A DNA stretch of 64,000 nt from Lachnospiraceae bacterium A4 (GTDB taxonomy: Bacteria > Bacillota > Clostridia > Lachnospirales > Lachnospiraceae), in assembly GCA_000403215.2 (NCBI GenBank), contig KE159527.1, positions 320,114-384,113 on the forward strand, written 5' to 3'. A program made the translations under genes and the position numbers. The notes beneath the pieces were generated by a model. The model searched no databases and was not told the origin of the DNA. It was given only the letters and a program-made list of their open reading frames with translations. This document shows positions 3,111-60,558 of this stretch, one piece after another; the first letter of the stretch is position 1, and every line of letters starts with the position of its first letter.

Positions 3111-3731
3111 ATGAAAGACAAAGAGCTGCGCCGGATAATCGGCGGCAGGGCAAAACAGCGGAGACTGGAACTGGGCGTCAACCAGCCTTATGTTGCTGAA
3201 AAAATGGGCGTCACTGCATCCACTATCCAGAGGTACGAGGCAGGTACGATTGACAACACCAAGAAACTTGTCCTTGACGGTCTGGCAGATGCACTCCATG
3301 TTTCCGTAGAGTGGTTGAAAGGCGAAACAGAGGAATACGAATCTGACATTACGGATAAAAGGGAAATGCTGATCCGTGATGCCATGTCCTCCATCCTTTC
3401 AAAGCTGCCCTATGACATGGAAACTTCCGAATCGGACTTTTCAAAAGACCTGCTGTTGCTGATGTTGCAGGAATATGAATTGTTTGTGGACTCTTTCCGC
3501 CTTGCGTGCAGGAAATTTAAAGGAAATGAAGAAAGCGCACAGCTTGCAAAGACAATGGGATTTGAATCGGGAAAGGAATATAATGAAATCATGTTCCTGC
3601 GGGAGATTACCCACACCGTAAATGCCCTTAATGATATGGGCGACATAGTGAGGCTCTACTCCAAAAACCCTGATGCCGCCGCTGCAAGGCTTTCCGGTCT
3701 TTTATCAGGGGAAGATTCCGATTCGGTATAG
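3111..3731 (+). CDS. Xre-family transcriptional repressor of the mobile element
   Basis: A 206-residue protein with an N-terminal HTH_3 domain (about 8-70: RAKQRRLELGVNQPYVAEKM then STIQRYEAGT) and an alpha-helical C-terminal domain of no recognised family. AAAGGAGGAAACCCC precedes the ATG. It is divergent from xis and upstream of int, the usual place of the regulator controlling excision in Tn916-like and mobilizable elements. The paired operators in the intergenic region are its likely targets. It lacks the zinc-protease motif of ImmA-type partners and the Ser/Lys dyad of LexA-like repressors, so how it is induced is unclear. Confidence 0.8.
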   Translation: MKDKELRRIIGGRAKQRRLELGVNQPYVAEKMGVTASTIQRYEAGTIDNTKKLVLDGLADALHVSVEWLKGETEEYESDITDKREMLIRDAMSSILSKLPYDMETSESDFSKDLLLLMLQEYELFVDSFRLACRKFKGNEESAQLAKTMGFESGKEYNEIMFLREITHTVNALNDMGDIVRLYSKNPDAAAARLSGLLSGEDSDSV

Positions 3732-3848
3732 CGGGACGGCAGATTTTATGCTATCCTTATTTACAGAAAGCATTCCATCAGTTCCGGCTGCCATATCTGT
3801 TCAATGATTACATACGCAGAAATGCGTTCATTGAAAGGAGAAACGATT

Positions 3849-5147
3849 ATGGCAAAGGGATCAGTACGGAAGAAAGGTAAAAAATGGTACTACCGCTTTT
3901 ATGTGGAGGATGCAAGCGGCAACCTGGTACAGAAAGAATGTGCAGGAACAGAAAGCAAGAGTGAAACGGAAAAGCTGTTAAGACAGGCAATGGAGGACTA
4001 CGAAAGCAAAAAATTCATTGCAAAGGCGGACAATATCACTCTTGGGCAACTGCTTGACACATGGGCAGAGGAAGAATTAAAGACAGGAACATTAAGCAAT
4101 GGCACTGTCGGTACTTATCTTCAGGCGATCAACCGTATTAAACAGCACCCTGTAAGCAGACGGAAACTCAAAACGGTTACTTCGGGACATTTACAGCAGT
4201 TCATGGATCTGCTCTCATTTGGTGGGACAGTTGATGGCTTTGTTTCAAAGGGATATTCCATTGATTATATCCGGTCATTTTCCGCAGTATTACAGCAGTC
4301 ATTCCGGTTTGCGGTGTTCCCGAAACAGTACATTACATTCAACCCCATGCAGTATGTGGTCATGAGGCATAAAAAGGACGATATGGACTTGTTTGCGGAA
4401 GAAACGGACACCGAAACGGGCAAGGTCAAGCCGCTGTCATTTGAGCAGTACCAAAAGCTGATTGCACAACTTGGCAGGCGGAGCAAAGACGCAATCCTGC
4501 CCGTACAGATAGCCTATTTCACAGGTCTCAGACTTGGGGAAGTGGCAGGACTGACCTGGCAGGACATCAACTTTGAGGAGCAATGCCTGACAGTCCGCAG
4601 GAGTGTCCGCTACAACGGTGCAACCCATAAGCACGAAATCGGCTCGACAAAAAGGAAGAAAGTGCGGATCGTTGATTTTGGCAACGCCCTCGCTGACATC
4701 TTGAGGAAAGCAAGGAAACAGCAGCTTAAAAACCGTATGCAGTATGGCGAACTCTACCACAGGAACTTCTACAAAGAGGTTACGGAAAAGAACAGGGTGC
4801 ATTATGAGTATTACAACTTGGGAATGACAGAGGATGTGCCAGCGGATTATACGGAAATCTCTTTTGTATGCTTGAGGGAAGATGGCTGTCTTGAGCTTCC
4901 TGCCACCGTGGAAACAGCCTGCCGGACAGCGGCAAAGAAAGTACCGGAGTTAGAGGGGTTCCACTTCCACACACTAAGACATACTTACACAACAAACCTG
5001 TTATCAAACGGGGCGCAGCCAAAAGATGTGCAGGAGCTTTTAGGACATTCAGACGTAAGCACAACCATGAATGTCTATGCACACGCTACAAGGGAGGCGA
5101 AGCGGGATTCTGCTAAACTCTTGGATAAGGTTGTGGGAATGAATTAA
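3849..5147 (+). CDS. int: Tyrosine recombinase / integrase of the mobile element
   Basis: A 432-residue integrase that cuts and rejoins attachment sites. An N-terminal arm-binding domain (about 1-55, SVRKKGKKWYYRF) is followed by a SAM-like core-binding domain and the catalytic domain. The catalytic set is visible: Arg228 (TGLRLGE), His374 and Arg377 (HTLRH), His400 (LLGHSD), Tyr410 (MNVYAH). The ATG at 3849 is preferred to the ATG at 3804 because GAAAGGAG lies at the right distance. It is the last gene before the inferred right end at 5234, the normal place for an integrase. The 6- to 7-bp shared core is consistent with this enzyme class. Confidence 0.93.
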   Translation: MAKGSVRKKGKKWYYRFYVEDASGNLVQKECAGTESKSETEKLLRQAMEDYESKKFIAKADNITLGQLLDTWAEEELKTGTLSNGTVGTYLQAINRIKQHPVSRRKLKTVTSGHLQQFMDLLSFGGTVDGFVSKGYSIDYIRSFSAVLQQSFRFAVFPKQYITFNPMQYVVMRHKKDDMDLFAEETDTETGKVKPLSFEQYQKLIAQLGRRSKDAILPVQIAYFTGLRLGEVAGLTWQDINFEEQCLTVRRSVRYNGATHKHEIGSTKRKKVRIVDFGNALADILRKARKQQLKNRMQYGELYHRNFYKEVTEKNRVHYEYYNLGMTEDVPADYTEISFVCLREDGCLELPATVETACRTAAKKVPELEGFHFHTLRHTYTTNLLSNGAQPKDVQELLGHSDVSTTMNVYAHATREAKRDSAKLLDKVVGMN

Positions 5148-6306: not shown

Positions 6307-7080
6307 TCATTCAGATTCTTCTCTGTATTCAAAGACAAACCACTTTTCATTCATATAAATCTCTATTGTATCGTCTGCTCCATACTGATAATTAAATCCA
6401 CTTCCAAAATTAGACTGATTATCTTCTGTTGGTATTTCAGTTCCATCGACAGTAGACGTTATTTCTCCATCCATATTTCCACAACGCCAGTCGATCGTGC
6501 TTTCTTTTCCTGTATCATAATATAATTTACCATCCACTCTTACCATAGGGATTCTGTCATACATTACATCAGCTTCTTCCTGTTTGAGCATCAGTTCTTC
6601 ATCCAAGTCCAGTCCCAGCATATTTCGTAAATTGCTTATGTATTCCGGGTCTTTCACCATATCATCTGTGACCATATAGCTGGAAATGGGATTCTGCCAT
6701 GGAATCACAAAAATATCTCTGTCGTCTATGTCAAAGGCAGACAGAATCAATGCCATTTCCTCTGGTGAAGCACCTTTTAATGCCATTAACTCTTCCAAAG
6801 TTTTCTGACGGTTGGTTCCCTGCATCAGCCCAAAACGATAGTCATCCTCTGCCATCTGCCAAACATAAACCTCCAGCCCCTTGAAGGTTCCAAGCTCAAA
6901 GTATTCTGGGTATTTTTCACGCAATTTATCTATTTCAGGAGAGTTCCACTCATATTCTGATTCAAGACCATCGGAAATATGCGTGACATTTACTTCTGAA
7001 TTTGTGTTTTTTCCACATGCACACAACACAATTGAAACAAGACTGCATAAACAAACAATACGGTATAATTTCTTTTTCAT
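6307..7080 (-). CDS. Putative lipoprotein of unknown function
   Basis: A 257-residue secreted lipoprotein: a lysine-rich N-terminus, a hydrophobic stretch and a lipobox (VLCAC, Cys about 22) show export and lipid anchoring. The mature part is acidic and of no recognised family. The ATG at 7080 is chosen over 7095 because GAGGAG lies 7 bases upstream. It is a single gene with its own terminator. It sits between two inverted repeat copies (6068-6120 and 7320-7376), which suggests the segment moved as a unit, although no transposase is present. Confidence 0.75.
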   Translation of the reverse strand: MKKKLYRIVCLCSLVSIVLCACGKNTNSEVNVTHISDGLESEYEWNSPEIDKLREKYPEYFELGTFKGLEVYVWQMAEDDYRFGLMQGTNRQKTLEELMALKGASPEEMALILSAFDIDDRDIFVIPWQNPISSYMVTDDMVKDPEYISNLRNMLGLDLDEELMLKQEEADVMYDRIPMVRVDGKLYYDTGKESTIDWRCGNMDGEITSTVDGTEIPTEDNQSNFGSGFNYQYGADDTIEIYMNEKWFVFEYREESE

Positions 7081-7192
7081 GGCTATTCTCCTCAAAAATA
7101 TATTTTATATCATACTATATTTTACCGCATATTACAATGCAGAGTAAATAGTCGGAATTGTCTCTGACTATTCCCCATCGTCTGACAGTCAA

Positions 7193-7225
7193 ATAAGCCT
7201 ACCAACTGATTGCTGATAGGCTTAT
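7193..7225. terminator. Stem-loop, possible terminator after tRNA-Leu
   Basis: ATAAGCCTA (7193-7201) and TAGGCTTAT (7217-7225) form a perfect 9-bp stem. It lies downstream of tRNA-Leu on the minus strand, with a modest T-rich tail. The rest of 7081-7385 holds only the right inverted-repeat copy. Confidence 0.4.
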
Positions 7226-7319
7226 CAAATAATCCCGCAATTTAAAATTCATAGAATATTAAAACCACCAAAACGTATTATTATACAATCCAAATGCATA
7301 TTTATAGTCCGATTTTCAA

Positions 7320-7376
7320 TGGGTACACAATTCCGAAAAGGGAGTTTCTTAATTGAATAAAGTGGATTGGCAATTT
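7320..7376 (-). repeat. Right copy of the inverted repeat
   Basis: On the minus strand it starts AAAATTGCCAATCCACTTTA, matching the copy at 6068-6120. It ends about 10 bp from the 3' end of tRNA-Leu. Confidence 0.55.
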
Positions 7377-7385
7377 TTTAACCAC

Positions 7386-7469
7386 TGCGGAAGATGGGAC
7401 TTGAACCCACACGTCGTTACCGACACAAGATCCTTAGTCTTGCCTGTCTGCCAATTCCAGCACTTCCGC
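7386..7469 (-). tRNA. tRNA-Leu (anticodon AAG)
   Basis: An 84-nt class II tRNA. The acceptor arm GCGGAAG/CTTCCGC pairs, the anticodon stem CAAGA/TCTTG encloses the loop CTAAGGA (anticodon AAG, codon CUU), a long variable arm is present, and the T-loop contains GGTTCAAGTCC. The 3' CCA is not encoded. A strong promoter lies just upstream. Confidence 0.93.
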
Positions 7470-7480
7470 GAACAAAAATT

Positions 7481-7509
7481 ATAATATCTTATTTCGACAC
7501 ATTTGTCAA
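7481..7509 (-). promoter_or_regulatory. Promoter of tRNA-Leu
   Basis: On the minus strand TTGACA (7509-7504), 17-bp spacer, TATTAT (7486-7481), followed by the tRNA start 12 bp on. Confidence 0.75.
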
Positions 7510-7556
7510 CTATTTTTCCAAATTTTATTATATATTTTTACCGGCTCTAATTTTAT

Positions 7557-7587
7557 GCGGCAGCCCAGTTCTGTTTCAAGCTGCCGC
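7557..7587 (-). terminator. Terminator after kptA
   Basis: GCGGCAG (7557-7563) pairs with CTGCCGC (7581-7587), 8 bp past the kptA stop. The tail is only moderately T-rich. Confidence 0.55.
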
Positions 7588-7594
7588 AAAGACT

Positions 7595-8146
7595 TTAGAC
7601 GATAAGCCGTTCAAAATATTCTGGCACAACCTTCTTGGTCAGCCATACACCATTTTCAGACAGATAAAATGCCTGTCCGTCACGGTACATGTCACCGCTG
7701 TGAATTTTGAGTACCACGGGTTTTCCATGGCGCTTTCCCACATTGACTGCGGTCTCGACATCTTTTGACAGATGCACATACAGCCGCCCCATCGGTTTGA
7801 GCCCTTCCCGCTCAATGCTGGCAAGGAAGCCGACAGCAGTGCCATGATATAAAAATACCGGCGGTTCCTGTTCCTTCAACCCGACATCTACTGGAACACT
7901 GTGCCCCTGATTCGCGCGGATATACGTCTTATCCTCATTAAACGAATAGCGCTGTTTGTTGTCTGTCCGAACGATTTCCTCAAGAAGCTCTCTGTCGATT
8001 CGTTTGCCAGTCCGCCTGATTCCTTCTATTAATTTGTCCACCTCTGCCCAGCCGTGTTCATCCAGCTCGATATAGGCTGCTTCTGGATGATGGCGCAGAA
8101 TGAGGCTGATGAATTTGCTCATGCTGTCGTTTGACATTTTTTTCAT
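7595..8146 (-). CDS. kptA: RNA 2'-phosphotransferase, Tpt1/KptA family
   Basis: A 183-residue enzyme that uses NAD+ to move an internal RNA 2'-phosphate onto ADP-ribose, giving ADP-ribose 1'',2''-cyclic phosphate and nicotinamide. Family signatures: the N-terminal winged-helix part with SLILRHHPE (about 12-20), IRANQGHS (about 75-82), LYHGT (about 98-102) and RLYVHLSKD. Length is normal for the family. AAAAGGAG precedes the ATG. It starts 13 bp after the GH42 gene, as the last gene of a six-gene run that also contains a 2H phosphoesterase. Bacteria lack the tRNA splicing that needs Tpt1 in yeast, so the cellular substrate is unknown. Confidence 0.93.
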   Translation of the reverse strand: MKKMSNDSMSKFISLILRHHPEAAYIELDEHGWAEVDKLIEGIRRTGKRIDRELLEEIVRTDNKQRYSFNEDKTYIRANQGHSVPVDVGLKEQEPPVFLYHGTAVGFLASIEREGLKPMGRLYVHLSKDVETAVNVGKRHGKPVVLKIHSGDMYRDGQAFYLSENGVWLTKKVVPEYFERLIV

Positions 8147-8159
8147 GCGAAATCTCCTT

Positions 8160-10202
8160 TTAACTTTTTATACCTTCTTCCAAAATCATACACTCAAACG
8201 CCCCCATCGTAACCTTCCCTTCTAACACCTCCCCTGTCTCGATGTTGATGTACGCCGACAAAAACTCCACGTCCGCCGCCGTTCTGTTAAAGTTCTGCAA
8301 AAACCACAGACTCCGATCGTCTGCCCTGCGCTCATTCACCGTCACGCCCATCGGGAATTTCACATTGAGACGGCATTCTAAGCCTTTTTTATGCAAAAGC
8401 TCTTGATAAAAAGCTCTCAGAAAATCCATCTCATTCATCGAGGCAATATAGTATGCCTCTCCTTTTCCATAAATGTTTCTCGTGAGCGCGGGATAGCCTG
8501 CATAAAAATCATGCTGGTACTCTGCAAGCACCTCTGCGCTTTTGGCGTGCACCAGTCCGCACAGCCCTGTGATTCGGTACGTTTGTCCCTGATACTGGAG
8601 GCTGTTCTCACAATAGCCGTCCGGCACGTCCATCTCCTCCGGCGCAATTCCCAAAACCTCCTCTAAAGGATGCTTTTCGAGATAGACTAAATCCGTATCG
8701 TCCACCTCCCCACTCCAGCAGGTCGTCACATAACAGCCGCCTTGTTCCACATATTGCTGCACGCTGTCCGCATAGCCTTTGCGGTACAGGTAATTTAACG
8801 GGGCAATGACCACACTGTACGAATCCAGTTCGCAGTCCATATCAACGATGTCCACATCGACGCCCATCTCCCAGAGCGGGCGGAAATATTCGAGAAAGAC
8901 CCGCTGATACTGGATATGGTTGTCAACGGCATAGGCGTCCTCCACTGCCCACCAGTTTTCCCAGTCAAAAATCATCGCAATCCGCGCCTGATTGCAGGTG
9001 CCAAGTACCTTGGGCGCAATCTGCAAAAGGCGTTCGCCAAGGCGCGCCACATCTCGAAATACTCTCGTGTTTTCCCCATATTTGTGATCGACCACCGCCC
9101 CGTGATATTTCTCGCTGCTGCCCCTGCTCTTGCGCCACTGGAAATACTGCACGCTGTCAGAGCCGCACGCCACCGCCTGCAAGGAGGACAATTCATGCAT
9201 TCCCGGCCGTTTCAGGCGGTTCTTCTCACGCCAGTTCACGACAGAGGGCGTGCTCTCCATCATCAAAAAATTATCCCGTTTCAGGCTCCGCACCAGACTG
9301 TGACAGGCAGCAGCCTCCGCCGCTGTATCCAGCTCGTCCGCGCCGCTGTGCCAGTCTGGATAGCAATCCCACGAGACAAAGTCTAACACCTTCGCCCACT
9401 GGAAATAATCCAACGGACGGAAAAATGCCATCAGGTTTGTTGTGACAGGCAGCGCACTGTAGCTGCGCACGGTGCGGATTTCCTCCTTGCAAAAATCAAG
9501 CTGTTGGCTGCTGACAAAACGCTTCCAGTCCAGATTTAGCCCGTGCAGCAGGTTCTCGCCGCGCGCTGAAGGCCCTTTGACCTGCGCCCAGTCAGTGTAA
9601 GTATGACTCCAGAAGGCTGTCCACCACGCCTTGTTCAGATTCTCAAGTGTTCCATATTTTTGCTGTAGCCATACGCGGAATGCCTGCTGGCAGTTTTCAC
9701 AGTGGCACGCGCCGTCAATGCCGTTGTTCGCAATCTCATTTGAGATATGCCAGCAGATCACGCCCGGATGCCTGCCAAAGCGCTCCGCGAGTTTCTGGTC
9801 TATCTGTCTTGTCTTTTCCCGCATCACCAGCGAGCTGGGGCAGTAATTATGCCGCTTTCCCGCATCATTGCGAACACCATTTTCACTGACCTGCCGCACC
9901 TCCTCATACTGGTCTGTCAGCCAGTGCGGCATCGCCCCCGTCGGCGTGGCTAGAATCGTATAGATGCCATTTTCATATAAACGCTGTATGATATTCTCCA
10001 GCCAGTCCAGCTCATATCTGCCCTCCTCAGGCTCCAGCCTGCTCCACGCAAAGATGCCAAGCGATACGCAGTTTACCCGCGCCTTTTTCATCAAGCGCAC
10101 GTCCTCCTCCAAAACCTCCGGGCAGTCGAGCCACTGATCTGGGTTGTAATCACCGCCGTGCAAAATTCCAAGTACATTTTCTGTATTGCTTCCTATCTTC
10201 AT
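8160..10202 (-). CDS. Beta-galactosidase, glycoside hydrolase family 42
   Basis: A 680-residue intracellular GH42 enzyme (no signal peptide) that removes terminal beta-galactosyl residues from oligosaccharides. The acid/base Glu156 (WHISNE) and nucleophile Glu316 (MMESTPS) are in place, as are the zinc ligands Cys121, Cys166, Cys168 and Cys171 (CHCENC). The domain order is a TIM barrel (1-390), a trimerisation domain (about 400-600) and a small beta domain. It lies 18 bp after the GH31 gene and 13 bp before kptA. Adjacent cytoplasmic GH31 and GH42 enzymes would fit breakdown of an imported galactose- and glucose- or xylose-containing oligosaccharide, but no transporter gene is next to them. 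Confidence 0.93.
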   Translation of the reverse strand: MKIGSNTENVLGILHGGDYNPDQWLDCPEVLEEDVRLMKKARVNCVSLGIFAWSRLEPEEGRYELDWLENIIQRLYENGIYTILATPTGAMPHWLTDQYEEVRQVSENGVRNDAGKRHNYCPSSLVMREKTRQIDQKLAERFGRHPGVICWHISNEIANNGIDGACHCENCQQAFRVWLQQKYGTLENLNKAWWTAFWSHTYTDWAQVKGPSARGENLLHGLNLDWKRFVSSQQLDFCKEEIRTVRSYSALPVTTNLMAFFRPLDYFQWAKVLDFVSWDCYPDWHSGADELDTAAEAAACHSLVRSLKRDNFLMMESTPSVVNWREKNRLKRPGMHELSSLQAVACGSDSVQYFQWRKSRGSSEKYHGAVVDHKYGENTRVFRDVARLGERLLQIAPKVLGTCNQARIAMIFDWENWWAVEDAYAVDNHIQYQRVFLEYFRPLWEMGVDVDIVDMDCELDSYSVVIAPLNYLYRKGYADSVQQYVEQGGCYVTTCWSGEVDDTDLVYLEKHPLEEVLGIAPEEMDVPDGYCENSLQYQGQTYRITGLCGLVHAKSAEVLAEYQHDFYAGYPALTRNIYGKGEAYYIASMNEMDFLRAFYQELLHKKGLECRLNVKFPMGVTVNERRADDRSLWFLQNFNRTAADVEFLSAYINIETGEVLEGKVTMGAFECMILEEGIKS

Positions 10203-10220
10203 CTATATTCTGCCTCCACA

Positions 10221-12632
10221 TTATCCTATTTCAATAAGCCTGTCCTTTGCGATCTGGGGCACGGGCATTTGTTCCACAATCTCCACATATGCCGCCTTGT
10301 CGGCGCAGCACAGCCTTTCATATATACTGTTCTTTTCATTGTTATCCATCTGTAATTTGGTAATGGTTTTCCGCAAAGCCTCTTTCCGCTTCTCGTCCGC
10401 CTTCTTTGCAAAGTGCACGCAAATTTCATATTTCGTATTTGGACAGACTTCTTCTATAACGACACTCAGACGCCCGTTATCGTCCACGGCTGCCGCACAT
10501 GCCTTCCCATCTGCCAAAACAGTTACAGTACCAGACAAAATATTGCTGAATACAAACTTATATCTTCTTGGCGGTATGCGTAATGCTGCTTCTTTCATCT
10601 CTGTATTGCAATGGAACATTACTGACTGGACACCTTCGCCCGCCTTTGACACAAATACCGTATCCAGCCGATTTCCGTCCTGCTCTTCATGCAATGTATA
10701 GCTTCCATTCCCGTTTGTGACAACCACTTTCAACTGGTCTGGATTCGACACATCATTTGTATATTTGCGGTCATCAAGCACAAAGAAGCCGCCTTCTTTT
10801 AACAAGACTGGCATCTCCTCCAGCCAGCGAATGAATGTAAGTTCTTGTCCGCCTGTGTACTCATCTCCCGTAAAGAAATCAGTCCACGTGCCCTGCGGCA
10901 GCCACGCTTTCACCCTTGCCATGCCCTGCGCTTCGCTCTTGGCTGTCACTGGCGCCACAATCATCTGACCGCCGAACAAGTATTGGTTCGGATATTGATA
11001 GGCTTCTTCTTCGTCTGCCCACTCATAATACATTGGCTCGATGAGCGCAAGCCCGTTCTCGGCAACTTCCACAGACGCCGAATACAAAAACGGTATCATT
11101 CGGTGCCGCAGCCGCAAATACTCCGCCGCAATCAGACCTGTACCATTTCCATATGCCCACGGCTCTTTCGTAAAGGTATCAGAATTGCTGCTGTGCAGGC
11201 GGTTAATCGGGCTGAATACGCCAAACTGCAAAAAGCGCACATAGAGCTCATCATCTTTGTAACCGCACATATGGCCGCCAATATCATGACTCCACCAGCA
11301 GTACCCTGCATTCGATGCCGTCGCTGTAAAATACGGCAGATACCCCAGACTCTCCCATGTCACCAGCGTATCTCCCGAGAAGCCCAGCGGATACCGGTGC
11401 GCGCCGATGCCGCTGTAGCGCGACAAGATCAGCGGTGCATGTTCCACGCCATTGTCCAGAAAATGATAGTGGTTGAGCGCCCAGAGCGGGTCAAGCCCCT
11501 CGAGCTTTGAGTCAAGTCCCTGCTGCCAGTCAATCCACCAGAAATCCACGCCCTCCCGCTCATACGGCTTGTGAAGCACCTTAAAATACGCATTGATAAA
11601 CGTCGCGTCGGTCATGTCAAAAGGAATCTGCTGCTCTGTCGCCGGGTCTATGCCTACTGCCTCTGCCATCTCCTCATAACAGTCCTCAAAATACCGCACG
11701 CCAAGCGCAGGGTGCAGATTCAAAGTCGTATGCAGATTTTTCTCATGCAGTTTTCCCAGAAAACGCCTGTAATCTGGAAACAAGTCTGTGTTCCAGCTAT
11801 ACCCGGTCCAACCGTCACTGCCGCCGTGCAGTGCGTCGTTTTTCCCACTCTGCGTAATCTGTTTGCGCGTGTCCAGCGTCTCTGACCAGTGCCAGTCCAT
11901 ATCCACCGTCGCAACCGTCAGCGGAAGCTCACGCGCATCAAAATTCTCAATCGTGTGCAGATACTCTTTTTCCGTATAGGCATGATACCGGCTCCACCAG
12001 TTGCCCAGCGCAAAACGCGGTATCAGCGGTGTCTTTCCGCAGATGGAAAACAGCGCCTTCAATGCACCCCTGTAATCCTTCCCATACGCGAACACATAAT
12101 CGTCCTTTTCAGGATATTCGCGCCGTTCAAGCATTCCATCTTCCTTTAAAATCAAAGACTGGCTGTCCTCCAAAAGAGCCACACCGTTTCTGGACACAAC
12201 GCCGTATCCCAATTGAATCTTCTCGGACGGCTGCCCGTCGCTGTCAAAAGAAATAAACTGGTCTCCGTCACAGCAGTCGAGTGTCCGGTAAGTGCCCAAA
12301 AGATTTTCGCTGTTGTTCAGAAAACTTTTTTTCTCTTGTCCTGCAAATACCACAAAACTTTCCTCAATGCTGCCCTTCCACACAAGAGTCACGCTGTCTG
12401 TGGCAATTCTTAATTCCGATGCCTCCTGATTTTCCGAAACAGAAAAAGATACTTGTTCGAACCACCGAAACCACACCGTCTGCGTCGCCTGATCACAAAA
12501 ATGCCCCTCGGGCTCCTGCTCAATGCGAAACAGCCTGTCGCCAAGAACCGTAATCCGCACCCCCTCTCTCACGACCATATTCTCCTGCAATGCAGCAGGT
12601 TCTGTCTTTGCAATTAAATGCTTGTCTAACAT
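10221..12632 (-). CDS. Glycoside hydrolase family 31 (alpha-glucosidase/alpha-xylosidase type)
   Basis: An 803-residue cytoplasmic GH31 protein. The catalytic nucleophile is Asp368 in WWIDWQQG and the acid/base is Asp421 in GFSGDT. The N-terminal beta-sandwich and barrel segments (GNWWSRYHAYT, VATVDMDWHW) match the family. The exact specificity (alpha-glucoside, xyloside or galactoside) cannot be read from the sequence. The ATG at 12632 has GGAGGAAAC upstream; an ATG 16 codons earlier overlaps the preceding gene and lacks a site. It is placed between the small unknown gene (19-bp gap) and GH42 (18-bp gap), so almost certainly co-transcribed with both. Confidence 0.92.
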   Translation of the reverse strand: MLDKHLIAKTEPAALQENMVVREGVRITVLGDRLFRIEQEPEGHFCDQATQTVWFRWFEQVSFSVSENQEASELRIATDSVTLVWKGSIEESFVVFAGQEKKSFLNNSENLLGTYRTLDCCDGDQFISFDSDGQPSEKIQLGYGVVSRNGVALLEDSQSLILKEDGMLERREYPEKDDYVFAYGKDYRGALKALFSICGKTPLIPRFALGNWWSRYHAYTEKEYLHTIENFDARELPLTVATVDMDWHWSETLDTRKQITQSGKNDALHGGSDGWTGYSWNTDLFPDYRRFLGKLHEKNLHTTLNLHPALGVRYFEDCYEEMAEAVGIDPATEQQIPFDMTDATFINAYFKVLHKPYEREGVDFWWIDWQQGLDSKLEGLDPLWALNHYHFLDNGVEHAPLILSRYSGIGAHRYPLGFSGDTLVTWESLGYLPYFTATASNAGYCWWSHDIGGHMCGYKDDELYVRFLQFGVFSPINRLHSSNSDTFTKEPWAYGNGTGLIAAEYLRLRHRMIPFLYSASVEVAENGLALIEPMYYEWADEEEAYQYPNQYLFGGQMIVAPVTAKSEAQGMARVKAWLPQGTWTDFFTGDEYTGGQELTFIRWLEEMPVLLKEGGFFVLDDRKYTNDVSNPDQLKVVVTNGNGSYTLHEEQDGNRLDTVFVSKAGEGVQSVMFHCNTEMKEAALRIPPRRYKFVFSNILSGTVTVLADGKACAAAVDDNGRLSVVIEEVCPNTKYEICVHFAKKADEKRKEALRKTITKLQMDNNEKNSIYERLCCADKAAYVEIVEQMPVPQIAKDRLIEIG

Positions 12633-12651
12633 CACTTGTTTCCTCCTGTAT

Positions 12652-13158
12652 TCAAACCTTTTTCTCGAACAGATACGCAATCTTGCTGTAATAAGCCTCC
12701 TTGCTCATCTCATGACCAATCTTATAATCTGTCAATATCTCATGTAACGGCAGTTTTTCTATAATGTTTTTGCTGCGCTCTTTGCTTTGGAAATGAATAT
12801 ATGCGTACATCCACCCTGCCCAATAGAGCTGGTAGCGTGCATACTCCTGCTGTTTCCCCCTTAACCGGAAGGCCGCCATCTCGTTCTCGTTGTCTACTTC
12901 GATGAAATCCTTTGCGGTATCATATGCTGCCTGTGACAACAATGTCGGATGGCCAATTTCCATCAATGCCCTGCAATCTGATTTCATAAAGGATTCTATA
13001 AACATTTCTTTATCTAAAAGAAACTGCTCATCGCCTAGAATTTCTCTGCAATACGCCTCACAGTATTCAAAGAGATAGCCCATATTTTCCATGTCCTTAT
13101 CCAGCCAAAATTCATCATAGCATATAAATTCCTCTAAATTTTGTGCCATTGGTACCAT
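12652..13158 (-). CDS. Unknown 168-residue protein, probable partner of the DUF3990 protein
   Basis: An acidic, mostly helical soluble protein (begins MVPMAQNLEEFICYDEF; conserved-looking WAGWMYAYIHF at about 120-130 and GHEMSKEAYY near the end). The gene starts 12 bp after the DUF3990 stop, with GAGAGGTG before the ATG. Small acidic partners directly next to ADP-ribosyltransferase-like genes are often antitoxins or immunity factors, so that role is suggested here by context only. No nucleic-acid binding motif is seen. It is followed after 19 bp by the GH31 gene. Confidence 0.75.
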   Translation of the reverse strand: MVPMAQNLEEFICYDEFWLDKDMENMGYLFEYCEAYCREILGDEQFLLDKEMFIESFMKSDCRALMEIGHPTLLSQAAYDTAKDFIEVDNENEMAAFRLRGKQQEYARYQLYWAGWMYAYIHFQSKERSKNIIEKLPLHEILTDYKIGHEMSKEAYYSKIAYLFEKKV

Positions 13159-13170
13159 AGTTACACCTCT

Positions 13171-13896
13171 CTATACAAAATCATAAATTGTCTGTTTGCC
13201 TGCTCTGCCCCCCTGATTCACTCTTAATGTGTTGTACTGCTGCCTTGCATACTGATCTCTCTTAACAAAAAATCCTCTGTACTTGTCTGGAACTTCGTTT
13301 ACCTCCACTTTGGTCAATCTACCAAATGCCTTCTCACTCTTGATAAAAACCTGTATTCCTAGTTCACCTGTCCGCAATGCTTTTTCTAATGTATCTTTAT
13401 ATATTGTTCCTGAGACAAATGCTTCCGCATAAGCAAAATAACTGTCATCTGCTCTATATCCTATAATAATATCATAATTGCTTGTATCCAATTTATAATT
13501 CTCGAGAAATATTTTTACATTATCCCGCACAACTTCCTTATCACCTAAATTTAACTTTCTATTATATAACAGCTCTGCAATCCAATGGATACTGTCCAAC
13601 TCTGTCAAATTTAATATCGCTAAATCTGACGTATCCAGCTCAAACGTGTGAATATATGCCTTTTTCCCTTGTGTGTATGTTCCCCATGCCCATTCTTTCG
13701 CCAATTCCTTATTGGGCGTTGTGTAAAAGCCTTTACCATAATCGTTATCACTTCCACCAACACCATATGTGGGGACCATCGTTTCGTTTTTATTGCCATG
13801 ATAAATGCTTATATTTCTTTTTTGCAGCAATTTTTTCACCTCTGCAATTTCAGCATATTCCGCTGTATTGGGGCTATCCTTTCTCACTGTCTCCAA
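13171..13896 (-). CDS. DUF3990 protein, ADP-ribosyltransferase-like
   Basis: A 241-residue protein of the DUF3990 family, which has a predicted ADP-ribosyltransferase fold. The diagnostic segments are IYHGN (about 31-35), GGSDNDYGKGFYTT (about 47-60), a helical middle and AYAEAFVSGTIY (about 156-167), followed by a basic tail. The start is uncertain: the frame begins with TTG at 13896 and has a weak ribosome binding site; GTG at 13887 is an alternative. It lies 54 bp after the 2H phosphoesterase gene and 12 bp before its small partner. Target and activity are unknown; a toxin or a NAD-consuming signalling enzyme are the main options. Confidence 0.82.
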   Translation of the reverse strand: METVRKDSPNTAEYAEIAEVKKLLQKRNISIYHGNKNETMVPTYGVGGSDNDYGKGFYTTPNKELAKEWAWGTYTQGKKAYIHTFELDTSDLAILNLTELDSIHWIAELLYNRKLNLGDKEVVRDNVKIFLENYKLDTSNYDIIIGYRADDSYFAYAEAFVSGTIYKDTLEKALRTGELGIQVFIKSEKAFGRLTKVEVNEVPDKYRGFFVKRDQYARQQYNTLRVNQGGRAGKQTIYDFV

Positions 13897-13950
13897 TTAC
13901 TTCTCACGTTCCCTTCCTGTTTTTGTGTCTGGCACATGCAGTCCTTGGCT

Positions 13951-14670
13951 TCAATGACGTGCCAAATTTATAACATTGATATAGTCATTCATGCTCACAA
14001 ACTTTTGATAGTACAACTGTTCCACAGACAGCTCAAATTCAATTTCCTGCTCATTTAGCTGGCGGACAGCCTTCTCTAGCCCTCTGGCAGACTGCACATC
14101 AAATCCGTAAACATTATAATACGCCAGTGTAATATGCGGTGTAAACGGGTATGGCAGCCGCTTCACTTCATCAAAGATGTCATACAGTTCCATCATTTTG
14201 CGATAGTCCTCCCCGCCCGCAGGGTACACCCCCATGACCAGACTGGTGTCCACCATATTAAACACCGCTTTGCTTTTCATTTTCAGGACTGTTTTCTCAT
14301 ACTTTTGTACCTGCTGCATTTGTTCAATCACCTTGAGCTCATTCTCAAACACGTCTTTCGCCACCTCCTGCAAAACAGGAGAATTGCTCAAATCATGCAG
14401 CGTTACATGAAACGTCTGGGGAACCAGCCGCTCACAAAAACAGTCCGGTGCCGACTGATACAAAAATGCTGCAAATGCAGCCAGTTTTTCTTTTACAGAA
14501 GCAGCCAGTTCAAAAACAACCGTATCTCCATAAAAATTCCGAAACGTATTATCGGGATTCACTTTTTTAGAAATCGACGGGTTTCCTTTGAAATAACCAT
14601 CTCCATACGTCCATTCCTTTTTTTCAAAAGAAAAAATCCTGTCTAAAAATTCTTGATAGGTCTCCATCAT
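13951..14670 (-). CDS. 2H phosphoesterase (LigT/cyclic phosphodiesterase superfamily)
   Basis: About 239 residues with the two HxT motifs that define the 2H superfamily: HVTLHD (His88-Thr90) and HITLAY (His179-Thr181). Members open 2',3'-cyclic phosphates or, in the CPDase branch, convert ADP-ribose 1'',2''-cyclic phosphate to ADP-ribose 1''-phosphate. The start is set at 14670 by AAAGGGGGAAG directly upstream; an earlier in-frame ATG exists at 14706. It is the first gene of the six-gene run ending in kptA, whose product makes exactly the cyclic ADP-ribose phosphate that CPDases cleave. The substrate here is not proven. Confidence 0.85.
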   Translation of the reverse strand: MMETYQEFLDRIFSFEKKEWTYGDGYFKGNPSISKKVNPDNTFRNFYGDTVVFELAASVKEKLAAFAAFLYQSAPDCFCERLVPQTFHVTLHDLSNSPVLQEVAKDVFENELKVIEQMQQVQKYEKTVLKMKSKAVFNMVDTSLVMGVYPAGGEDYRKMMELYDIFDEVKRLPYPFTPHITLAYYNVYGFDVQSARGLEKAVRQLNEQEIEFELSVEQLYYQKFVSMNDYINVINLARH

Positions 14671-14761
14671 CACTTCCCCCTTTCTTTTCATCATACAATA
14701 AATCACGCAAGATAGCTATCCCAAATTCCATTTCCTGACAGCAAAGTTATGACATCTGCTA

Positions 14762-14790
14762 TTGACACGCACTGCGGCAGCTTATATCAT
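14762..14790 (+). promoter_or_regulatory. Promoter of the gene at 14825
   Basis: TTGACA (14762-14767), 17-bp spacer, TATCAT (14785-14790), about 35 bp before the start codon. Confidence 0.7.
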
Positions 14791-14824
14791 AATATCAAAA
14801 TACTATTTTGGAGGGACGCGCATC

Positions 14825-15871
14825 ATGGAGGTATATTACAGCACAGACGAAACAATCTGGGGACACAGCAAACAAGCAGAAAAACTCACCAAGGTTTCCA
14901 TCAACCGAACTGTTTTGTGGGAAAACCAAGAGATTTTTATCCCAGCAGTCTATGTAGGTTTATCGGGCGCGGTACTTGATCTTTGTGTCAAAATTCCCTC
15001 AGAAGATATGGTTCATTTTCTGCAAAAATGGGATACCGAAAAACGCCTCTCCCTGAAAACCTCGGAGGAGTACGAACAGTTCGAATCCGAAAATCCAAGC
15101 TGCAAGCACTTTCGCACGGAAATCTGTCTCAATGGAAAACCGCTGGCCTTATTGATGGGCAGCAGTCTGTTCTGGTATTGTGATGATGTGGTTCATCAGA
15201 CTGTGCCCCAAGAAACACTCGCACAGGCAAAGACAGGGACCGCAGCAAACAACAATCCAGACACGGACTTGTGGCAAAATGACCCAGATGCCGAACGGCT
15301 GCGAACCGCTTACCACTGCGGTGCAGACGGCTGCTGGCAGTTTGAACGTCTTGTCTGGCAGTGGACTGACACACCTGTACTGTCACCACAGGAAATCACC
15401 TTACTTTTCCGCGCCTGTCCAAAACCCGTGACAGCGGGATACTTTGTCACGGCCTCCGGTTCCAGCGATAAACCTGTAACGCTTATCAAGGCCCTCTATC
15501 CGGAAACGAATCAGGAGTACACCATCACCCAGCATGAATGCAGGCTGACCCGGCACAGCTTTGACAACACCAAAGGAATCTCCTATCCTGAATACAGCCA
15601 GTCACTCCTCTACAGTATATCACCCAGCCTTGCACCAGAACTGTATGATATTATAGACTGCTGCGCTGGCGACACCCCGCGCATGAGCGGTATGCCGGAC
15701 AGAACATGCAGCCACACAGCCGCCTTCGCCTGCGCCCCAAGTCCCGCATCAGACAAAAGACTTGCAATGTCCTCCTTCCATTTTGAACGCTTTTTCTCTG
15801 AAGTCCGCTGGCGGCTGGTATTCTATGTAACGCAAAAACCAGCACTGGAAGTGCGTTTTCCGATATTGTGA
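14825..15871 (+). CDS. Unknown soluble protein of 348 residues
   Basis: No family is recognised. The protein has no signal peptide or membrane segment. It begins MEVYYSTDETIWGHSKQAEK and is rich in Trp, Cys and acidic residues, with LFWYCDD near 140 and a C-terminal segment (SEVRWRLVFYV) that looks like a beta strand pair. The ATG at 14825 has TTGGAGGGA in front and a good promoter; a 21-codon upstream extension lacks both. It is divergent from the 2H-kptA operon and monocistronic, since 216 bp separate it from the next gene. Confidence 0.75.
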   Translation: MEVYYSTDETIWGHSKQAEKLTKVSINRTVLWENQEIFIPAVYVGLSGAVLDLCVKIPSEDMVHFLQKWDTEKRLSLKTSEEYEQFESENPSCKHFRTEICLNGKPLALLMGSSLFWYCDDVVHQTVPQETLAQAKTGTAANNNPDTDLWQNDPDAERLRTAYHCGADGCWQFERLVWQWTDTPVLSPQEITLLFRACPKPVTAGYFVTASGSSDKPVTLIKALYPETNQEYTITQHECRLTRHSFDNTKGISYPEYSQSLLYSISPSLAPELYDIIDCCAGDTPRMSGMPDRTCSHTAAFACAPSPASDKRLAMSSFHFERFFSEVRWRLVFYVTQKPALEVRFPIL

Positions 15872-54774: not shown

Positions 54775-56547
54775 ATGAACCATTTTATGCCTAGCTTCCT
54801 GCTGTGCAACCTCCTAATCAGCGGCATCATCGGTGCACTTCTCGTCGGAAAGCGCCTGCTGCGCAACAGCCTGTCGAGCAGAATGCAGTATAACCTGTGG
54901 TTTCTGCTGCTTGGTCTGCTCGCCGTCCCCTTCCTGCCTGTTCAGAAAATCAATCTTGCATTGCAGAAGGCGCCGGCTGTTCCAGCAGAGCCTGCCGCCG
55001 CAGTGACCGCCGCCCTCCAGCCGGCAAACGCCGCTGTCTGGATCAATGAACTGGGCGTCACTGTCAGCAGCAAAACCCCTTCTGGCATCGGTTCTTTGTT
55101 GTGGCTTCTATGGCTGTCCGGCATCGCGGGCATGGTTGTCTGGCTTGTACGGTCTGTCCTTTCTTTTCACAGAATCAGACAGTCTGCACTCCCGCTGCAA
55201 AATCCTGCGGTTCACAGGCTGTATTGTGACTGTCTGGCGGAGATGCACATCAAGAAATATATCCCCGTCTACAGCACTGCATTCCTGAAATCTCCTGTCA
55301 TTGCCGGATTTTTCAGACCATGCATTCTCCTGCCGATTCACCTGATATCTGACTGTCCTTCCAAGGAAATACGGTATATGCTGCTGCACGAGCTACAGCA
55401 CTATAAACACAAAGATGCACTGGTTAATTATATCACCTGTATTGCCAACGTGCTTTATTGGTTCAACCCTGCTGTGTGGTATGCATTGCGGGAGATGAAA
55501 AATGACCGCGAGGTCGCCTGTGATACTTCCGTACTCAACATGCTGGAAGCCGGTGATTATGAGGCGTATGGAAACACACTGATTAATTTTGCCGAAAAAA
55601 TTTCCCGTCTGCCGTCTCCGTTTGCTGCCGGCATCGGCGGAACGATGGCGCAGATGAAAAAGCGGATTCTAAACATTGCCGCCTACCAGCCAGCGACGCG
55701 CAAAAAAGGTCTGTATGGTCTTGCCATTTACCTAATGCTCGCTGTATTATTATCTGGCTTTGTGCCGCTTCTGACAATTCATGCCGCCGGCAGCAGCTAT
55801 TATCATTTTCAGGAAAAAGGAAAAACGATTGTACCGCTGCATCTTGACAGCGCCTTTGATCAAAATCACGGCAGTTTTGTCTTGTACGACGCCGCTTCTG
55901 ACGTTTGGCATATCTATCACAAAGAAACCGCATCCACGCGCGTAGCCCCGGTTTCTACCTACAAGATTTACAGCGCCCTGCTCGGTCTGGAGGCTGGACT
56001 GATTTCTCCCGAAGAATCACAGCTTGCGTGGAACGGGCAAAACTACCGCTATGATACATGGAACGCAGACCAGACCTTACAGACCGCAATGCAAAACTCT
56101 GTGACATGGTATTTTCAGACGCTTGACCAGAGCGCAGGGCTGCCGGCAATTCAAAACTTTGTCCGCAAGATCGGATATGGAAACCAGACCGTCGGTGAGA
56201 ATCTGGCATCTTATTGGGGCGATTCCTCCCTGCTGATCTCCCCCATCGAGCAGGTAGAGCTGTTGAGAAAATTTGATGAAAACCAGTTTGGATTTGCCCC
56301 CCAGAACGTTGAGGCGGTCAAAGCTTCTATCCGGCTGCACACTGCTGGAAATGCCACATTGTATGGAAAAACGGGCACAGGCGAAGAAAACGGGCAAAAC
56401 GTTCTGGGCTGGTTTATTGGATATCTCGAAAAAGATGGAAATACATATTATTTTGCAGTCAACATTCAAAACGAGCAAGATGCAGACGGCACTGCTGCGA
56501 CCGCGCTGGCATTTGAGGTTCTTGAGGCGTTAGGACTCTGGAACTAA
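54775..56547 (+). CDS. blaR1: BlaR1/MecR1-type beta-lactam sensor-transducer
   Basis: A 590-residue membrane protein. Transmembrane helices lie at about 5-25, 40-55, 108-130 and 315-335. The cytosolic M56 zinc protease carries HELQH (205-209) and the distal Glu in NDREVACD (246). The extracellular C-terminal penicillin sensor has STYK (394-397), SVT (442) and KTG (532), like class D beta-lactamases. Acylation by a beta-lactam should trigger the protease and relieve BlaI repression. AAAAGGAGGTGG precedes the ATG inside blaI. The last 18 bp overlap the convergent beta-lactamase gene. Confidence 0.94.
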   Translation: MNHFMPSFLLCNLLISGIIGALLVGKRLLRNSLSSRMQYNLWFLLLGLLAVPFLPVQKINLALQKAPAVPAEPAAAVTAALQPANAAVWINELGVTVSSKTPSGIGSLLWLLWLSGIAGMVVWLVRSVLSFHRIRQSALPLQNPAVHRLYCDCLAEMHIKKYIPVYSTAFLKSPVIAGFFRPCILLPIHLISDCPSKEIRYMLLHELQHYKHKDALVNYITCIANVLYWFNPAVWYALREMKNDREVACDTSVLNMLEAGDYEAYGNTLINFAEKISRLPSPFAAGIGGTMAQMKKRILNIAAYQPATRKKGLYGLAIYLMLAVLLSGFVPLLTIHAAGSSYYHFQEKGKTIVPLHLDSAFDQNHGSFVLYDAASDVWHIYHKETASTRVAPVSTYKIYSALLGLEAGLISPEESQLAWNGQNYRYDTWNADQTLQTAMQNSVTWYFQTLDQSAGLPAIQNFVRKIGYGNQTVGENLASYWGDSSLLISPIEQVELLRKFDENQFGFAPQNVEAVKASIRLHTAGNATLYGKTGTGEENGQNVLGWFIGYLEKDGNTYYFAVNIQNEQDADGTAATALAFEVLEALGLWN

Positions 56548-57543
56548 GTAATCGGACACAAGTCGGACTGCAATTTCCTTTGCCGCAGCGCTGGTGACAT
56601 TCTGATTGTCTGTCCTGCCAAGGTACACGCAGAAATAAACAGTTTTCTCCTCCGACGGCTTCTCCGCAAAGCCTGTAAACCATGCGTCAACCGTGACACC
56701 GCCGGTCTTGCCCATTCCTGTCTTTCCATAGATTTTGACTGGCGCTTCATCCTGCTCTGCCACCAGCATCACCTGCCGCAGTGTCTCCCTTGTCTTTTCT
56801 GAATAGACAGAAGTCTCCCCAAAAATGCGCGCCATCACTTCTGTCTGTTCTTTGGGAGAAATGAGCAGAGACGATTCAAGCCAAAAGCCCGTCAACGCAC
56901 GATGATTGTTATTGGTGTTGAGACGCCCCTCCCAGTCGGAAATATCGCAGTTGCCATAGTGAAGCCTGTTCAGCTCTGACTGCATGGTCTCCTGTCCGAC
57001 TGTATCAATTAATTCCCTGAAATACCAGACGCAAGATGTGCGGAAGGCATCTTGAAAGCCGATATCACGATTCCAGTCCTGATTCCAGAATACCTCGCCA
57101 CTCCATGTCCTCGTAGAATCCTCTGGTTCAAGAAAACCGTTTTCCAGTGCAATCAAGGACGAGACAATTTTGAAAGTAGAGCATGGTGACCGTGGTGTTG
57201 TGGCAAGCGTTGTATTATATAGTGTGTACTGACTATCCGCAGCGTCATAAATCACTGCTGCCCCGTTCAATTCGCCAAAATACGCGGACCAGTCAGCTTC
57301 TAAAATAATATCTTGTGTTTTGTTCTGCTGGTTTGTAATTGCTGGCTCCTCTGGATTGTCATTTTCTGTATCGAGTGATGTCTGTATCAGGCTCTCAGAT
57401 TCTTGTACTGTTTCCATTTCCTTGGTCAAATTCTCTTTATTTTTCTCTATCTCTATGTCCGTACTGCGGGCGCAGCCGCCCAAAACCAGCCCGCACAGCA
57501 TAATCCAGCATAACGCCTTTTGAGTAAAATATTGTCTTTTCAT
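56530..57543 (-). CDS. Class D beta-lactamase (lipoprotein)
   Basis: A 337-residue lipoprotein (lipobox LGGC, Cys24) with a 60-residue acidic linker and a class D domain: STFK (122-125; nucleophile Ser122 and carbamylatable Lys125), SCV (170), YGN (196), FWLESSLLISP with the Trp221 common in class D, and KTG (274). It resembles Gram-positive class D enzymes such as the C. difficile CDD type and probably hydrolyses penicillins outside the membrane. GGAGGG precedes the ATG. It starts 34 bp after the PBP2 gene, sharing its BlaI-controlled promoter, and converges on blaR1. Confidence 0.92.
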   Translation of the reverse strand: MKRQYFTQKALCWIMLCGLVLGGCARSTDIEIEKNKENLTKEMETVQESESLIQTSLDTENDNPEEPAITNQQNKTQDIILEADWSAYFGELNGAAVIYDAADSQYTLYNTTLATTPRSPCSTFKIVSSLIALENGFLEPEDSTRTWSGEVFWNQDWNRDIGFQDAFRTSCVWYFRELIDTVGQETMQSELNRLHYGNCDISDWEGRLNTNNNHRALTGFWLESSLLISPKEQTEVMARIFGETSVYSEKTRETLRQVMLVAEQDEAPVKIYGKTGMGKTGGVTVDAWFTGFAEKPSEEKTVYFCVYLGRTDNQNVTSAAAKEIAVRLVSDYLVPES

Positions 57544-57576
57544 ATACAGTTGCCCTCCAATCTATTCGAATCCGTT

Positions 57577-60465: not shown

Positions 60466-60502
60466 AATTTTATCACTCCCTGCCTGCTGTGCTGTTTTAA
60501 CT

Positions 60503-60549
60503 ATTACATTTGTAAGATTTGTTGGAATAATATTACAACAGTAAGATTT
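60503..60549 (-). promoter_or_regulatory. Two BlaI-type operators
   Basis: ATTACATTTGTAAGATTT (60503-60520) and ATTACAACAGTAAGATTT (60532-60549) are direct repeats. Each contains a TTACA-N2/3-GTAA dyad like the BlaI/MecI box TACA-N2-TGTA. The second overlaps the -10 box and the spacer, and the first lies just downstream of the -10, so repressor binding would block transcription of PBP2 and beta-lactamase. Confidence 0.8.
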
Positions 60550-60558
60550 TGAAGTCAA
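60530..60558 (-). promoter_or_regulatory. Promoter of the PBP2-beta-lactamase operon
   Basis: Minus-strand TTGACT (60558-60553), 17-bp spacer, TAATAT (60535-60530). Confidence 0.8.

Follow-up and report, generated by a model that had tools for sequence, protein, structure and literature searches.

Proteins of the DUF3990 family are placed in the ADP-ribosyltransferase (ART) clan of Pfam, as stated in the available part of PMC7955679. Among the closest known systems are the RES-Xre toxin-antitoxin modules with their ART-fold toxins ParT, MbcT and NatT, and PADLOC lists a phage defence candidate, PDC-M42, in which gene A encodes a DUF3990 protein, gene B a small partner and gene C a NADAR protein. 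The PDC candidates reportedly originate from work on defence systems that lie within immune loci, by Payne et al., released on bioRxiv in 2024, a title also among the references of PMC13356809; PDC-M42 was not found by name in the literature searched. Here we analyze a 64,000-nucleotide stretch of the genome of Lachnospiraceae bacterium A4 (contig KE159527.1, positions 320,114 to 384,113 of the forward strand; hereafter the window, with coordinates counted from its first letter), in which a run of six minus-strand genes brings together a 2H phosphoesterase, a DUF3990 protein with a small partner, two glycosidases (GH31 and GH42) and the RNA 2'-phosphotransferase KptA. The run is probably made up of independent units, one of them an ART cassette of the toxin-antitoxin or defence type, in a lineage-specific juxtaposition, rather than a single pathway. 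Most likely, a PDC-M42-like ART cassette came to lie next to sugar genes, with a syntenic kptA–tRNA-Leu pair downstream.

Gene neighbourhoods in related genomes carry this conclusion. A family set of 120 genomes, one per genus, and a genus set of 38 genomes were compared, both counting the genome of the window (6.96 Mb, 40 contigs). In addition, DUF3990 had matches in 78 of 397 family genomes, and the neighbourhoods of 20 of the better ones were fetched, giving, with six loci of the genus, 26 neighbourhoods in all. As longest-first picking of open reading frames (ORFs) may hide small genes, tblastn was used to verify that 2H, kptA and DUF3990 were absent. None of the 26 other DUF3990 loci contained 2H, kptA, GH31, GH42, RNA ligase or HD-Pnk genes (tblastn, E <= 0.01), and neither 2H nor kptA was detected at 17 DUF3990 loci on viral contigs (E <= 1e-3). 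Conversely, eight distinct 2H loci were examined beyond those of the window and of its sister species G142 (L052, L053, which equals L113, L054, L104 and L121-L124), and tblastn at E <= 0.01 found DUF3990 or kptA at none of them, L054 and L053 being short. In the family set kptA was present in 26 genomes and 2H in five, the window's genome being counted in both; the only other genome with the two genes, G105, has them on different contigs. In the genus set kptA was found in 17 genomes, DUF3990 in ten (four of them above 40% identity), relatives of GH42 (at least 72% identity) in ten, relatives of GH31 (at least 77%) in five, 2H in four and the partner in three. Of the four 2H carriers, only the window and G142 have the gene at the kptA locus; G140 has no kptA match, and in G146 kptA is on another contig. 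The full gene order was seen in the window only, with a decayed form in G142. The preliminary description of this DNA had proposed one RNA-repair, NAD-signalling or defence module, or sugar genes captured by one, and had named, as a test set beforehand, conservation of the 2H-DUF3990-kptA linkage. That linkage is absent in relatives except the sister species, and the counts at the DUF3990 and 2H loci do not support such a module.

The layout itself, with the six minus-strand genes, their families and gaps of 54, 12, 19, 18 and 13 bp (recomputed from the ORF table), was borne out by the ORF table, Pfam, NCBIfam and PADLOC. The gap values take the GH31 start to be the ATG at 12632, which is preceded by AGGAGG; the mechanical ORF begins earlier, at a TTG. 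The features are as follows:

13951..14706, minus strand: 2H phosphoesterase (LigT-like), listed with 251 aa; an ATG near 14670 is the probable start
13171..13896, minus strand: DUF3990 protein, predicted ADP-ribosyltransferase (PF13151, 1e-37); start codon uncertain; GC 0.37
12652..13158, minus strand: DUF3990 partner, putative antitoxin, 168 aa, all-helical (PADLOC PDC-M42B, 9e-9)
10221..12632, minus strand: GH31 glycosidase (PF01055, 8e-53)
8160..10202, minus strand: GH42 beta-galactosidase (PF02449, 9e-144)
7595..8146, minus strand: kptA, RNA 2'-phosphotransferase (PF01885, 3e-49; NF002014, 249.2 bits)
7386..7469, minus strand: tRNA-Leu(AAG), found by ARAGORN and Rfam, with its own promoter-like site at 7509-7481

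The DUF3990 protein has residues H33, Y58 and Q182 invariant in 27 of 27 aligned sequences, and these residues are probably catalytic. The best structural matches of its model are ARTs, with toxins of toxin-antitoxin systems topmost, and it resembles ParT and MbcT. The gene has no ATG ahead of the ART domain, candidate starts being the TTG at 13896 or later TTG/GTG codons, and its composition (GC 0.37, GC3 0.35) differs from that of GH42 (0.53 and 0.64). For the partner, Pfam gave no match even at E values up to 0.1. Its structure was modelled at pLDDT 88.4, and the profile of its family includes a C-terminal XRE/HipB-like helix-turn-helix in longer members. A partner-like gene directly follows DUF3990 at 19 of the 20 family loci fetched, and a small one lies directly downstream at the six genus loci. 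BLASTP (E <= 1e-3) connects each of the 26 partner genes with one or more of the others, and that of the window with weak ones only (best 25% identity, E 1e-11). What had been an unknown partner can now be assigned to a recurrent DUF3990 cassette. NADAR is the third gene at five of the 20 family loci and at one of the six genus loci (L118; PF08719, 3e-48), and the partner accompanies DUF3990 at 11 of the 17 loci on viral contigs (in L216 about 3 kb apart). In L178 (3970-5518) Pfam places a DUF3990-partner-NADAR cassette between HsdM/HsdS and HsdR genes, the HsdR-fused gene also containing an HsdS domain, and in L182 beside HsdS. Judging by their translations, the cassettes of L172, L186 and L202 also look associated with type I restriction-modification, L202 being a phage-listed, unverified record. 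Since the DUF3990 pair matches A and B of PDC-M42, it is not undescribed, as had been supposed for the whole run. The suggestion of a defence module holds for DUF3990 and its partner, as a defence or toxin-antitoxin kind, and is not supported for the six genes together.

Two further DUF3990 loci were noted. In G135, not far from its main DUF3990 pair, reading of L116 (10332-11226) suggests another DUF3990-like gene, a short one, with a gene for a 154-aa protein after it. On a Treponema plasmid (L200, 1911-6080), DUF3990 and a hypothetical gene lie near genes for ToxN-like, HEPN and '2'-5' RNA ligase family' proteins; the 2H protein encoded there is not clearly related to that of the window (E 0.025).

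DUF3990 and its partner probably form a mobile toxin-antitoxin-like cassette. DUF3990, as an ART-fold H-Y-Q enzyme, would ADP-ribosylate a target or consume NAD+, with a presumably toxic outcome, the small helical partner would restrain and so neutralise it, and NADAR in related cassettes would be the likely eraser. No target is stated in the literature passages that name DUF3990 (in PMC7955679, PMC4524185, PMC10763514 and PMC12165300). The cassettes in which an ART and its helical partner are joined by NADAR, itself related to guanine de-ADP-ribosylases, offer a target for learning what DUF3990 modifies, and may matter more than the run in the window.

The kptA gene belongs to a different context. 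Its product exceeds the curated cut-offs of PF01885 (167.8 bits against 26) and NF002014 (cut-off 239), matches PDB 7kw8 at 3e-47 and, aligned by eye, carries the Arg-His-Arg-Arg tetrad R18, H19, R66 (in KQRYS) and R121, the hallmark of KptA/Tpt1 according to the available part of PMC6333775. In the genus, no neighbour of kptA is more constant than tRNA-Leu(AAG). With flanks of up to 1.5 kb scanned, this tRNA gene was found close downstream of kptA in the window and at nine of 16 other genus loci; where kptA is at least 77% identical, the tRNA gene was present at nine of 11 other loci. The contig of G124 stops 0.2 kb past kptA. The gene upstream of kptA varies: an AAA-like gene with gaps of 3-8 bp in G146, G148, G143 and G138, a chemoreceptor gene in G142 and GH42 in the window, while G125, G155 and G122 have no close co-directional gene there. 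In G125 and G155 GH31 is linked with kptA and tRNA-Leu, without 2H, DUF3990 or GH42. Promoter-like sites are present between kptA and tRNA-Leu. The association of the two is a local synteny, not a family-wide rule; kptA would be held beside tRNA-Leu(AAG), often tightly after whatever gene lies upstream. Its product most likely performs generic NAD+-dependent removal of RNA 2'-phosphates.

Other features were noted around this pair. In L103, L105, L106, L107 and L108, translations suggest a lipoprotein-like gene beyond kptA and tRNA-Leu, together with what seem to be dgt, dnaG and rpoD. In the window, genes for a tyrosine integrase (3804-5147) and an XRE-type regulator (3111-3731) lie about 2.2 kb past tRNA-Leu; a repeat of the tRNA-Leu 3' end was not found within the window.

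RNA ligase is present in 13 of the 38 genus genomes, adjoined by HD-Pnk in all nine inspected of these 13. In G124 the two genes lie beside GH31. In the window's genome the ligase gene is on contig C23, not on the kptA contig, and C23 would supply the RNA ligase and the HD-Pnk end-healing enzyme, as their families suggest.

The 2H protein matches PF02834 (27.5 bits, cut-off 23.3) and has both HxT motifs (H100-x-T102 and H191-x-T193), invariant in nine of nine aligned sequences including its own. Against the equivalog model of RNA 2',3'-cyclic phosphodiesterases, TIGR02258, its score is far too low (14.8 bits, cut-off 65.7). The neighbours of 2H vary, being GNAT (L054), GH3 (L122), GH31 (L124), a transposase (L053) or nothing telling (L121), and in L104 RNA ligase and HD-Pnk lie 12 kb away. 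The neighbourhoods hint at RNA or ADP-ribose chemistry but do not amount to a module, and 2H is probably a lone, patchily distributed phosphoesterase.

The sister species G142 is the sole other genome that shares the ground plan of the window (identity 91% for kptA, 90% for GH31 and 89% for GH42), on two contigs that meet inside GH31. The first carries AAA-like, aldo-keto reductase, 2H and GH31 genes; the second, the GH31 end, GH42, genes for a sugar-binding protein and a chemoreceptor, kptA and tRNA-Leu. The reading frame of 2H is disrupted. DUF3990 and its partner survive only as a 70-bp match (88.6%), located between 2H and GH31, to the last part of DUF3990 and the first part of the partner. 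Because of this remnant, the DUF3990-partner cassette appears to predate the split of the two species and to have been lost in G142. The sugar-binding protein and chemoreceptor genes were apparently gained or lost in one of the two lineages. Together with these genes in the sister, GH31 and GH42 would form a glycan-use block. A ribosome-binding-site-like stretch ahead of kptA is, as read from the sequence, kept across the junction.

Several observations weigh against a mere juxtaposition. First, the remnant dates the order 2H-DUF3990-partner-GH31 before the split of the two species, and the joint decay of 2H and loss of the cassette in G142, a single fragmented assembly, is as expected if 2H, DUF3990 and the partner cooperate. 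Second, the order in the window is intact, tight and co-directional, and such an order can evolve under shared regulation. Third, two distant 2H genes have neighbours of related chemistry: in L123 (6696-8418, from G067) 2H overlaps a same-strand gene for an ADP-ribosylglycohydrolase (PF03747), and in L052 (3371-6499) genes for an AAA_33 kinase and a Thg1-like polymerase lie about 1.1 kb upstream of 2H, with a CAP-domain gene between. Fourth, in G125 (L099, 7947-11994) and G155 (L098) the region that separates GH31 from kptA holds RNA ligase and HD-Pnk on the opposite strand, and among the 38 genomes 11 have both ligase and kptA, two the ligase only, six kptA only and 19 neither, a co-occurrence above chance (Fisher p 5e-4, a value that ignores the kinship of the carriers). 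Finally, the tRNA-Leu synteny has exceptions: G121 (kptA 82%) lacks tRNA-Leu beside kptA, and it was absent from all 28 family loci scanned, a soft count, as some of these kptA matches are fragments or lie near contig ends.

Of the other explanations the one that survives best, albeit unlikely, takes 2H, DUF3990 and the partner as a three-gene defence unit inserted beside the sugar genes, with kptA and the glycosidases as bystanders. Upon infection the ART would act, the partner would restrain it, and 2H would clear (cyclic) phosphorylated ADP-ribose or heal an RNA end. The intact order in the window and the losses at the same site in G142 agree with this, and in the schemes of the available part of PMC9503650 the chemistry of ADP-ribose phosphates brings ART together with 2H and calcineurin-like enzymes. 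Moreover, the closest DUF3990 relative found (51% identity, in G112; L170, 4757-6127), which is the exception to the 19 of 20 loci with a partner, has a gene for a calcineurin-like phosphoesterase 6 bp downstream. However, this second case has a different phosphoesterase, the number of cases is two, and none of the 26 other DUF3990 loci has 2H, nor any of the eight other 2H loci DUF3990. A smaller chance still is left, in view of the joint decay in G142 and of the phosphoesterase gene that accompanies DUF3990 in G112, for a branch of DUF3990 systems in which the NADAR eraser was replaced by a phosphoesterase, namely 2H in the lineage of the window and a calcineurin-like enzyme in G112, the window containing a 2H-DUF3990-partner defence unit. 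If so, the ART would make phosphorylated ADP-ribose, as RES enzymes and KptA do, the phosphoesterase would open or remove this product, and kptA could feed the same pool.

A full RNA-repair module, in which 2H and KptA would heal RNA ends cut or modified in an attack, DUF3990 would give an ADP-ribose signal and the glycosidases would ride along, is very improbable and largely refuted by the neighbourhood counts. RNA repair by KptA and 2H is an established idea in the part of PMC9503650 consulted, and RNA ligase and HD-Pnk exist elsewhere in the window's genome and at the kptA locus of G125 and G155; but 2H-kptA linkage is not seen outside the window and G142, in the latter the sugar-binding protein and chemoreceptor genes split GH42 from kptA, and the ligase of the window's genome is on another contig. 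A GH31-GH42 sugar operon, whose regulation was adopted by its neighbours in one glycan-induced transcript with no functional coupling, has equally little probability: the gaps are short and kptA has an orthologue of GH31 linked to it in G000, G125, G155 and, across two contigs, G142 (G124 being cut by contig ends), but the run contains no regulator gene.

Under the preferred explanation, a juxtaposition of independent units, the six genes may nevertheless share a transcript through their position. Scanning of 7000-15000 revealed 14 terminator-like sites (6.7 expected) and 17 promoter-like sites (12.4 expected). Internal promoters and terminators had been considered as possible breaks in the run: no minus-strand terminator-like site was found in its gaps, and the lone minus-strand promoter-like site at a gap, the one from GH31 to GH42 which it overlaps, is weak (9 of 12). 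For these reasons, a single transcript is possible. The NAD/ADP-ribose and RNA-phosphate chemistries noticed at the outset are indeed related on paper, by family; three enzymes of linked chemistry in a suggestive operon can still be an accident of gene order. Elsewhere in the window (54775-60558), genes for a BlaR/MecR-like sensor, a class D beta-lactamase or penicillin-binding protein (PBP)-like protein and a PBP2-like protein are consecutive, by reading only.

In comparison with known systems, the adjacency of RNA ligase and HD-Pnk in this genus recalls the Deinococcus RNA ligase-PARG-HD-Pnk operon (PMC11833690, available part), except that no PARG lies between the two and that the pair of the window's genome is on another contig. 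The locus shares with RNA repair by KptA/Tpt1 and 2H, as outlined in the accessible text of PMC9503650, the presence of both families, about 5.8 kb apart, but the linkage is not conserved and the locus has no ligase or kinase. In some type VI Rhs effectors DUF3990 occupies the C-terminal, toxin position (PMC4524185, PMC10763514 and PMC12165300, in the passages available), in a Serratia case with a small immunity-type gene downstream; unlike these, the window's DUF3990 is stand-alone and intracellular, without secretion parts, and those passages give its function as unknown. As in the DarT-NADAR and YarT-YbiA pairs (PMC11125620, available part), an H-Y-X ART occurs near NADAR in five of the 20 cassette relatives, whereas NADAR does not adjoin the pair in the window, DUF3990 belongs to a different ART family and a third gene intervenes. 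The closest likeness is to PDC-M42. DUF3990 of the window matches A at 8e-48 and the partner matches B at 9e-9, in the same gene order, and the L178 proteins match A, B and C at 7e-126, 9.5e-79 and 4e-84. The window pair differs in its weak B match, in having 2H and GH31 instead of restriction-modification genes as neighbours, and in lacking an adjacent NADAR: the next gene is GH31, and three NADAR genes lie on other contigs. As gene C is missing from the cassette, the pair is not classed as PDC-M42; its sequence points to a related system, with candidate status for defence.

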